A stretch of 64,000 bases of DNA, taken from positions 124,001-188,000 of the forward strand of contig BPJV01000003.1 in the NCBI GenBank assembly GCA_026004795.1, read 5' to 3'. Position numbers and translations under genes: made by a program. Source of the DNA: Pirellulaceae bacterium. Lineage in GTDB: Bacteria > Planctomycetota > Planctomycetia > Pirellulales > Pirellulaceae. Shown one piece after another: positions 45,807 through 47,852 of the stretch (the stretch's first letter is position 1; each line of letters opens with the position of its first letter). The notes under the pieces are model-generated. The model was given only the letters and a program-made list of their open reading frames with translations. It had not been told where the DNA came from and searched no databases.

Positions 45807-46217
45807 TCAACTCGGATCCCGACAACTGAGCTCTTTCAGTACGCGACAGGCGGCCCGTGGCGAACCGGTTCGGCATTGGGCGAGCGCTGTCGTCAGCACT
45901 TGTCGGACCTCCTGCAAATCGCGCCATCGCCGGTCGATTTCCTCCAGCCGCTCCTCGATCAATTGCCGAACCTGCCCACACCTCGGCGACCGATCGCCCG
46001 CGCCGAGCAGCCGTTTGACGTCGTCCAGCGACAGCCCGATGGCCTGCGCCGCGCGGATAAAACGCAGCCGCCGTAACGAAGACTCCCCGTACAACCGGTA
46101 GTTCCCGCCACTCCGGTCCTCCGGCAGGATCAGCCCGATCCGTTCGTAGTACCGCACCGTCGTCACCGGTACGTCAGCCAGCCTGGCCAGTCGCCCAATG
46201 GTGTATTGCTCGGACAT
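45807..46217 (-). CDS. merR: Mercury-responsive transcription regulator MerR
   Basis: 136 residues from the ATG at 46217 (MSEQYTIGRLARLADV); the GTG at 46253 would add 12 unlikely residues. It has an N-terminal MerR winged helix (TTVRYYERIGLI, RSGGNYRLYGESSL) and a C-terminal dimer helix. Cysteines fall at 80, 115 and 124, spacing 35 and 9, the same as the Hg(II) triad C82/C117/C126 of classical MerR. So it most likely senses mercury. It is divergent from the mercury-transport fusion gene. Confidence 0.9.
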   Translation of the reverse strand: MSEQYTIGRLARLADVPVTTVRYYERIGLILPEDRSGGNYRLYGESSLRRLRFIRAAQAIGLSLDDVKRLLGAGDRSPRCGQVRQLIEERLEEIDRRWRDLQEVRQVLTTALAQCRTGSPRAACRVLKELSCRDPS

Positions 46218-46296
46218 TTCGCGATCGTGTTTTCGAAGTGGAAGGAGCCGCACGATGCAATGTCAGGTCACGCGGTGACGGTGCGTTTTCGTAATA

Positions 46297-46380
46297 ACAC
46301 TCGCTGGCGCGTCGTACTGGTAAAACACTCGCTGGCGCGTCGTGCTCGTAAGACACTCGCTGGCGCGTCGTGTTGGTAAA
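46297..46380. repeat. Three tandem copies of a 28-bp unit
   Basis: The 19-base core ACACTCGCTGGCGCGTCGT is identical at 46297-46315, 46325-46343 and 46353-46371, with exact 28-base spacing; the 9 bases between cores vary slightly. Read on the minus strand it encodes the familiar planctomycete 'HDAPASVL..RRASEC' pseudo-peptide, a known repeat-type artefact. It lies between merR and the mercury transport gene, whose intergenic gap (46218-46637) otherwise has the promoter below and no gene. Confidence 0.85.
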
Positions 46381-46553
46381 TAGTGGTTCGGCTCAATACT
46401 AGCCCGCAGCGCCAGCAAGGGAAATGCAGCATTAATCCGCACCGCGAATTAATCCCACGCCCGGTCGCGTTGATGGGGCGGTTTGAAACGCCGCATCGGG
46501 TCACCGCGAATTCCGCAAAATCGGGCGGGTTGAAAAAAAAACGACGATTGCGC

Positions 46554-46585
46554 TTGACATTATACCCAGGTGCAACCTCGATAAT
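46554..46585 (+). promoter_or_regulatory. MerR-type promoter/operator of the mercury transport gene
   Basis: The -35 box TTGACA (46554-46559) and -10-like GATAAT (46580-46585) are 20 bases apart, the overlong spacing that MerR-family activators correct. A dyad AGGTgcaACCT (46568-46578) lies in the spacer. It ends about 50 bases before the ATG at 46638. This is the expected structure for mercury-induced transcription. Confidence 0.75.
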
Positions 46586-46637
46586 AAGGTAAGAAGAGCT
46601 TCGGGTTTCAGGGCGACGATCGACGGGGACGTGACTC

Positions 46638-47852
46638 ATGAGTGCCGAAAACCACCCGCATACGACGGAACACTGCCCAGAATGTGGCCATAAGGGACGT
46701 CGAGTCGCTGAGGTCACCTTGGCGGCTCTGCTCCAACCACCGTGGGCTGCCGAGTTCGCTCGAGCGAGCGAGGATTGTTGCGGCCAGACGGGCGGCGAAC
46801 CGATCGGTTGCGCGCCCGCCCCGCGCGAAACGCCCTGGCGGTTCTGTGACTCGCCCGACTGCGACGTGGTTTATTACTCGATCAGAACCGGACGGACGTT
46901 CACCGGGTCACAGCTTCGCGTGCCCGTGGGGGTCAAGGAGCGGACTGGCGATCGGCCGCTGTGTTACTGCTTCGGGCATTCGATCGCCAGCATCAAAGAC
47001 GAACTGCGTCGCACGGGAACCACGACGGCGCTGGAGGATATTCGCGACAAGATGAAACGGATCGGCTGTCATTGTCCTACGTCGAATCCGTCCGGCGCAT
47101 GCTGTTTGGGCAGCGTGGCGCGGGGCATCGAAATCGCGCGGCGTGAATTGGAACAAGAAACGGCCACACCTCCATCGGCCATCACCAACCGGGCAGGGCG
47201 GGGACGCATCGAATTGATCGCCAGCGCGGGAGCGATCCTTTCGGCCGTATTGGCCTCGGCCTGCTGTTGGTTGCCATTGGTGTTGCTGGCGGGCGGCGTA
47301 TCTGGCGCCGCCGTCGCTTCGACGCTGGAAGCATACCGGCCCATCTTCATCGGCGTGGCCGTATTATTTCTCGGCGCGGCATTCTACGTCACCTATCGTC
47401 CACGGCGCGCAAGCGACGCTCAGGCGGATTGTTGCCCGTCCGACGGTGAAGCGGCCGCCACCTGTTGTCCGCCTGCGGGTCAACGGACGACGATGATGAC
47501 GGTGAACAAAGCCATGCTGTGGGTTGTCACCGCCCTAGTCGCGGCGTTCATCCTGTTCCCCAACTACGTCGGCGCTCTGCTGGGCGGCGGAACGTCCGGG
47601 GTTGTGTCGAGCGATGCACCGCAGCTCGAGTTGGTCGTCGAGGGGATGACGTGCGAGGGATGCGCGGCGATCGTCGAACAAGCCGTGCGGCAGGTTCCCG
47701 GCGTGCAGCACGTATCGGTCGACCATCAAACCGGCCGCGTCGTCGTCTCCGCCGAATCTTGTTGTCCCATCCCCACCGAACAAATCGTCTCAGCAATCGA
47801 ACAGGCCGGATACACTCCCCATTCCCACCCGCCGCATGAACCGCTTCGGTGA
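46638..47852 (+). CDS. CopZ-MerT-MerP mercury transport fusion
   Basis: 404 residues with three joined parts. Residues 1-165: a cysteine-rich domain like the CopZ N-terminal [2Fe-2S]/zinc domain (CPECG near 13, CDSPDC near 70, CYCFGHS near 109, CHCPTSNPSGACC at 144-156). Residues 190-315: MerT-like membrane helices with the Hg-binding pair ACCWLP (209-210) and two more CC pairs at 265-266 and 276-277. Residues 325-404: a MerP/HMA domain with GMTCEGC (336-342) and a further CC near the end. It would carry Hg(II) from outside to the cytoplasm. No mercuric reductase (merA) is present in the window. MerT-MerP fusions are known; the added CopZ domain is the unusual part. Confidence 0.88.
   Translation: MSAENHPHTTEHCPECGHKGRRVAEVTLAALLQPPWAAEFARASEDCCGQTGGEPIGCAPAPRETPWRFCDSPDCDVVYYSIRTGRTFTGSQLRVPVGVKERTGDRPLCYCFGHSIASIKDELRRTGTTTALEDIRDKMKRIGCHCPTSNPSGACCLGSVARGIEIARRELEQETATPPSAITNRAGRGRIELIASAGAILSAVLASACCWLPLVLLAGGVSGAAVASTLEAYRPIFIGVAVLFLGAAFYVTYRPRRASDAQADCCPSDGEAAATCCPPAGQRTTMMTVNKAMLWVVTALVAAFILFPNYVGALLGGGTSGVVSSDAPQLELVVEGMTCEGCAAIVEQAVRQVPGVQHVSVDHQTGRVVVSAESCCPIPTEQIVSAIEQAGYTPHSHPPHEPLR

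Follow-up and report, generated by a model that had tools for sequence, protein, structure and literature searches.

Import of mercury into a cell that has no mercuric reductase should be harmful, and the locus described here raises the question of how such an arrangement could be tolerated. It lies in a 64,000-nucleotide stretch of a Pirellulaceae genome (contig BPJV01000003.1; hereafter the window), where a MerR-type regulator stands opposite a single gene in which a CopZ-type domain, a MerT membrane part and a MerP-like domain follow one another.

Architecture and regulation of the fusion

Features are given with window coordinates, strand and the evidence for each.

45807..46217, minus strand: merR-type regulator, 136 aa, Cys80/115/124, ATG at 46217 (profiles)
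46554..46585, plus strand: MerR-type promoter/operator with TTGACA, 20-bp spacer, GATAAT and central dyad (pattern conserved in relatives)
46638..47852, plus strand: triple-fusion gene CopZ-N/MerT/HMA, 404 aa (Pfam and NCBIfam profiles)
46668..47117, plus strand: CopZ-type N-domain, residues ~11-160 (profiles, 2hu9 alignment, model, cysteine conservation)
47196..47567, plus strand: MerT-like part, three membrane segments predicted, the first with C209/C210 (profile, model)
47397..47489, plus strand: cysteine-rich loop between membrane segments 2 and 3, C265/C266/C276/C277, predicted cytosolic (charge and cysteine counts)
47625..47816, plus strand: MerP-like HMA domain, residues 330-393, GMTCEGC, predicted periplasmic (profiles, model)

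As the original prediction had proposed, one gene encodes all three parts, each of which exceeds its curated Pfam cut-off: zf_CopZ (best stretch, residues 11-39), MerT (198-266) and HMA (334-393). The MerT match (PF02411; 44.2 bits, cut-off 32.9) places the protein among MerT/MerTP transporters. Residues 199-393 scored 111 bits against the MerTP_fusion model NF033556, below its cut-off of 180, and the protein is therefore not filed as a MerTP_fusion equivalog. The assignment of residues 1-170 to a CopZ-type domain also held: in addition to zf_CopZ, the N-terminal domain exceeds the cut-off of the NCBIfam model CopZ_Nterm_CC (NF047645; 106.7 bits, cut-off 100), and the structure of the N-domain of Archaeoglobus fulgidus CopZ (2hu9) aligns with residues 67-158 (E 3.7e-10). 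In this alignment C70, C75, C109, C111, C146, C155 and C156 are each opposite a cysteine; C13 and C16 are so only through a weak, 5.7-bit alignment piece. By correspondence with 2hu9, we take C13, C16, C70 and C75 to be the zinc ligands and C109, C111, C146 and C156 to be the [2Fe-2S] ligands.

Conservation likewise points to these ligand positions. We aligned the window protein with 53 of its 65 relatives encoded in one frame (54 rows; short, open-ended, duplicate and outlying rows omitted), and cysteine is kept in 54/54 proteins at positions 13, 109, 111, 146, 155 and 156, in 53 at positions 70 and 75, and in 43 at position 16. The cysteines typical of MerT and MerTP proteins are present as well, on sides of the membrane that are predicted. 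These are the vicinal pair of helix 1 (C209 and C210, 54/54), those between segments 2 and 3 (C265 in 51/54; C266, C276 and C277 each in 31-33 of 54) and the CxxC of the HMA domain (C339 and C342, 54/54). Over the 54 proteins, lysine plus arginine average 2.59 ahead of segment 1, 0.04 in loop 1-2, 4.87 in loop 2-3 (which also averages 3.28 cysteines) and 1.00 after segment 3. These charges predict an N-in/C-out topology that would place the N-domain and the cysteine-rich loop in the cytosol and the HMA domain in the periplasm.

An AlphaFold2 model built from the 54 sequences (mean pLDDT 80.2, pTM 0.52) contains helices at residues 190-218, 223-232 plus 234-253, and 283-306 of the MerT part. 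Its best PDB match is 2hu9 (E 5.6e-7, TM 0.81 by target length), and MerP (1osd) is among the next (E 1.5e-5). With a modest pTM, the model places the individual domains well, but not their mutual arrangement.

The window MerR has cysteines at positions 80, 115, 124 and 132, the first three in the 35/9 spacing originally reported for it. It scored 99.4 bits against the MerR model TIGR02051, short of the equivalog cut-off (150.85), and 97.3 bits against the zinc regulator model NF007069, likewise below cut-off and about equal to the first score. The 35/9 triad is also common to PbrR-type lead sensors; given this, and that the two profiles score alike, the triad by itself is no proof of mercury. 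When the window MerR was used as a query against plasmids, no particular metal was indicated: the 40 matches listed, of at least 5000, bear generic names or none.

The predicted promoter, with its 20-base spacer and central dyad, was confirmed at 46554-46585; a sigma-70 scan built for spacers of 16-18 bp misses it. Counting the window, 28 loci have a divergent merR, and the motif is present in 25 of them. The consensus over 24 different sequences, TTGACCTTGCACTCAGGTGCAAGGTCGATAAT, has 11/14 dyad pairs, and the window retains 8/14. The family pattern, derived from the relatives and the window itself, has one match in the window and 0 in 100 shuffles, and it identifies a single site in the whole genome at ≤3 mismatches. 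Among MerR genes beside relatives, the 35/9 triad occurs in 27/28 divergent (window included) and 24/30 codirectional ones. According to an excerpt of PMC5027573, the spacer of mer promoters is 19 bp long in Gram-negative bacteria and 20 bp long in Gram-positive ones, and Tn501 MerR uses Cys82/117/126. A separate feature of the intergenic region is a 28-bp tandem repeat (3.2 copies, 46291-46380) between merR and the operator. We rejected its reading as a REP-like element: the genome contains only two exact copies of its 20-base core, and both are here.

Distribution of the fusion and its link to mercury

The CopZ-fronted fusion proved less singular than first supposed when related genomes were surveyed. 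At the level of the order, 18/396 genomes contain a match at E ≤1e-20 (own genome included, some matches partial), with none in the other six listed genomes of the host genus. A draw of 392 genomes across the phylum contains 45 with a match to the family profile at E 1e-30, and in 27 of these (own included) the fusion is full length. A scan of named records yielded 206 matching stretches, of which 142 are relatives, and the best 80 of these 142 were kept as 76 loci. These loci are mostly from Planctomycetota, with others from Verrucomicrobiota, Acidobacteria and a few further groups; the labels Bacteroidales (L063), Quisquiliibacterium (L086) and Porticoccaceae (L109) on metagenome-assembled genomes may be binning errors. 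CopZ and MerT share one open frame in 65 of the 76 loci; the remaining 11 have a missing part, a frameshift, a stop, separate genes or no start found. A MerR gene is close upstream in 57/76. Some contigs appear both among the named loci and among the order relatives (L073 = L045; L111 = L050), and the two sets are therefore not summed. The fusion is thus recurrent, mercury-linked (see below) and undescribed as far as our literature searches reach. The original prediction would have counted as refuted had the architecture been both common and already characterised: common it is, and no characterisation, nor any description of the CopZ-N/MerT/HMA architecture or of merR-linked CopZ-N, was found in the literature searched, mainly abstract openings.

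The mobilizable plasmid pK2D_1 also bears the merR-fusion pair, with merR unannotated. In its record (CP036351.1, 37939-39174; L167) the triple fusion is called merA, Mercuric reductase, and the frame is that of the fusion along its length. Fusions so named in public records would mislead merA surveys. Several frames related or adjacent to the fusion contain in-frame TGA. One MerT-HMA relative (L057:9468-10040, genome G329), in which no CopZ part was matched, carries three TGA codons at functional cysteine positions (SSuCWLP, GMTuHTuV), and on this basis is perhaps a selenoprotein version. The stretch L044:9993-11240, directly past the fusion, contains a lipoprotein-like frame with an HMA-like GATuMLu motif, and thioredoxin-like frames with PGuPMC or kin and in-frame TGA occur there and, likewise past the fusion, in L043:10943-11348. 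An excerpt of PMC9312934 lists selenoprotein versions of both MerT and CopZ-like 2Fe-2S proteins.

We then considered the reductase itself. All 27 candidates in the host genome were scored with TIGR02053 and none exceeded the cut-off, which agrees with the reported lack of a mercuric reductase, runs against the suggestion that merA might lie elsewhere in the genome, and sets the locus apart from a complete mer operon. The assembly is 96.8% complete, and a merA-bearing plasmid may therefore be missing from it. The best candidate (404 bits, cut-off 454) was rejected as MerA; it belongs to the FAD oxidoreductase family PRK06370.1-3 (778 bits, cut-off 620) and has no C-terminal cysteine pair. The next two look like dihydrolipoamide dehydrogenases, judging by their sequences. 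No MerB exceeded the cut-off in the 18 genomes with the fusion (own included), one of which, G103, has a weak match.

Absence of merA is no peculiarity of the host; it proved to be the usual state of the family. A scan of up to 41 candidates per genome detected MerA in 2/26 other genomes with a full-length fusion, leaving 24/26 without. Among order relatives with whole or partial matches, it was present in 3/17, each time within ~1.3 kb of the gene, and absent from 14/17. The cultured planctomycete Rhodopirellula europaea 6C also has the fusion, and the stretch of its genome that was analysed contains no merA. Where MerA does occur, it accompanies the family. In the phylum set, with the best four candidates per genome scored, MerA exceeded the cut-off in 4/392 genomes, and all four are among the 45 with a family member (Fisher p 1.5e-4). 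Each of these four genes lies downstream on the strand of the family member, at a distance of 0.06-1.1 kb: 1.1 kb (G630) and 0.9 kb (G612) after full fusions, and 0.06 kb (G479) and 0.4 kb (G598) after MerT-HMA genes with no CopZ part at the cut-off used. Ten of the MerAs at 11 family-linked loci examined end in a vicinal cysteine pair, and the frame of the other (L068) is broken. In a tree of the window protein and 61 of the 65 one-frame relatives (L093, L129, L131 and L132 omitted), the window sits beside L081, which has an adjoining merA, with moderate support (83, unstarred). The doubt that mercury is the metal is thus partly answered by merA adjoining the gene in some relatives, and the mercury link of the family is good, though MerA is rare in genomes with the fusion.

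Two pairs of loci capture the relation between merA and the fusion. In L065/L068 and L074/L111, the DNA spanning merR, operator and fusion is 90-94% identical and the flanks are unlike, with identity ending within ~20 bases past the fusion. L068 and L111 have a merA match; L065 and L074 have none in the ~8 kb covered. The occurrence of a near-identical block with and without merA shows that merR and the fusion move as a unit and suggests that merA is optional.

Stand-alone CopZ-type domains on plasmids

A query with stand-alone CopZ-N identified 29 plasmid records, pK2D_1 among them, and we examined regions from 24 of the other 28 with 2.5-5 kb flanks. In 16/24 a merR-type gene precedes CopZ-N, directly or one to two genes apart. 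These are from Peribacillus, Cytobacillus (two), Cohnella, Stenotrophomonas, Deinococcus (seven), cyanobacteria (two) and Methylomonas (two). Within the 16, the CopZ-N stretch is no listed gene in two regions, and merR is in two pieces in one. No merA is annotated within any of these 16 regions, the sole one among the 24 being that of Halorussus; as the plasmid gene table is incomplete, this absence weighs less than a search would. The MerR beside plasmid CopZ-N has the 35/9 triad in 7/15 cases and not in 8/15 (Deinococcus, cyanobacteria). The association of stand-alone plasmid CopZ-N with merR, in two cases ahead of merB, is new in the present analysis.

The arrangements vary. In Methylomonas DH-1 separate genes occur in the order MerR-MerT-HMA-CopZN, and two plasmid CopZ-N genes come after an ArsR and P-type ATPase pair. 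Two Deinococcus plasmids have the order merR-copZN-merB (L168:4541-5970, L170:3541-4976) with no annotated merA there; an lpdA on the first is without the C-terminal cysteine pair. On two cyanobacterial plasmids (L173:3003-4417, L175:1448-2931), a thioredoxin, a MerR-type regulator, merF and CopZ-N are consecutive.

A candidate route for Hg(II) and its alternatives

We propose, at roughly even odds of being right, that merR and the fusion form a self-contained, two-gene mercury module under MerR control, with a cytosolic acceptor of its own in the place of MerA. In this proposal, Hg(II) would convert MerR into an activator of its single target gene. The C-terminal periplasmic HMA domain (C339/C342) would capture Hg(II), which would go next to C209/C210 in helix 1 of MerT and from there to the cysteine-rich cytosolic loop. 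The loop would deliver it to the CopZ-type Zn/[2Fe-2S] domain at the N-terminus, where it would be bound and possibly also reduced. The original prediction was right to ask whether this domain receives Hg(II). We infer Hg(II) as both inducer and cargo, the direction of flow and the acceptor role of CopZ-N. Computed support for the module comes from its domains and operator, the conserved cysteines, the charge-based topology, the joint transfer of merR and fusion, and the linkage to merA in some relatives. The merR-type genes ahead of plasmid CopZ-N, with merB right behind in two regions, also speak for it. The known relay runs from MerP to the helix-1 cysteines of MerT, then to a cytosolic MerT cysteine and on to MerA (excerpt of PMC5715351). 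As the predicted topology has the same order, the fusion would put a cytosolic cysteine domain at the point where MerA normally takes over. An acceptor that binds metal one to one would have little capacity unless it turns over, and this speaks against the acceptor reading. Further points against the module are the near-equal scores of the MerR and zinc-regulator profiles, the eight of 15 plasmid MerR proteins without the 35/9 triad, and the P-type ATPases near some plasmid CopZ-N genes and named loci. Reduction by CopZ-N would be a bolder step than acceptance. The idea derives from the reported reduction of Cu(II) by the Fe-S domain of A. fulgidus CopZ (excerpt of PMC7558416), together with MerA-independent reduction of Hg(II), which is presumed to involve low-potential ferredoxins (excerpt of PMC8261052).

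Three other explanations deserve consideration, each of which we regard as unlikely. CopZ-N might pass its metal on to an exporting P-type ATPase, in the way that CopZ chaperones supply CopA. A P-type ATPase match occurs in 10 of the 76 named loci (best 80 of 142 relatives) against a MerA match in six; in L069 and L129 such a gene immediately precedes the fusion in the same orientation, and the ArsR-ATPase-CopZN arrangement of two plasmids is of the same kind. However, window positions 36001-57000 contain no such match, the single genomic occurrence of the operator (≤3 mismatches) means that no ATPase shares it, and importing a metal only to export it would be futile. It is similarly improbable that the metal is not mercury and that a system for lead, cadmium or another soft metal was assembled from mercury parts. 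The triad shared with PbrR-type sensors, the similar scores of the MerR and zinc-regulator models, and a host genome with neither MerA over the cut-off nor a MerB match would fit this idea. Against it, a true MerA is next to the fusion in L073, L111 and L115, whose merR, operator and fusion are of the type seen here, and MerT and MerTP are mercury families.

The remaining explanation, to which we give as little credence as to the other two, is that CopZ-N replaces the delivering N-domain of MerA (NmerA); merA-less genomes would then have lost the gene, or their assemblies would miss its replicon. Consistent with this, no HMA-like CxxC precedes MerA in open frame at any of the 11 family-linked loci, and the merA label requires four changes on the tree, of which starred branches force three. 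However, an upstream CxxC is also lacking from the MerAs of G479 and G598, whose family members have no CopZ part at the cut-off, and this weakens the reading. Moreover, no MerA exceeds the cut-off in the 24/26 and 14/17 genomes noted above, several of them single-contig, and in other phyla CopZ-N accompanies merR where no merA is annotated.

The self-contained module may be one instance of something wider. CopZ-N comes in several arrangements (merR-copZN, merR-copZN-merB, merR-merT-merP-copZN and the triple fusion), and we tentatively speculate, with more doubt than for the module itself, that it is a MerA-independent end point for mercury, an Fe-S protein that accepts cytosolic Hg(II) and either reduces it to Hg(0) or holds it. 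A 2021 survey counted 906 genomes with MerB and without MerA, asked what handles Hg(II) in them, and lists one Planctomycetes genome with MerA (excerpt of PMC8261052). An Fe-S domain that recurs, often behind a merR-type gene, and that is fused to an importer or sits ahead of merB offers a specific and testable candidate for handling Hg(II) without merA. If the wider speculation is true, such an end point would be part of how bacteria with MerB or MerT and no MerA survive.

Several known systems resemble the module in part. Like the window protein, the MerTP fusion of NF033556 consists of a MerT membrane part followed by a MerP-like HMA domain, but its 186-position model has no CopZ-type N-domain. 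The MerT/CopZ fusion-like selenoprotein model NF045683 also joins MerT to a CopZ-like HMA, although this 235-position model is matched only in part (54.1 of 375 bits). With A. fulgidus CopZ (2hu9) and NF047645, the window protein shares the Zn/[2Fe-2S] N-domain and its ligand positions; A. fulgidus CopZ is a cytosolic copper chaperone in which an HMA is fused to the Fe-S domain (excerpt of PMC7558416), whereas the window CopZ-N is ahead of MerT and opposite merR. Another parallel is to the Tn501/Tn21 mer operon, which has the MerR cysteine triad, a long-spacer promoter and the MerP-MerT cysteine relay (excerpts of PMC5027573 and PMC5715351). Unlike that operon, the window has a promoter spacer of 20 rather than 19 bp and no merA, and unites the transport parts in one gene together with an extra domain.
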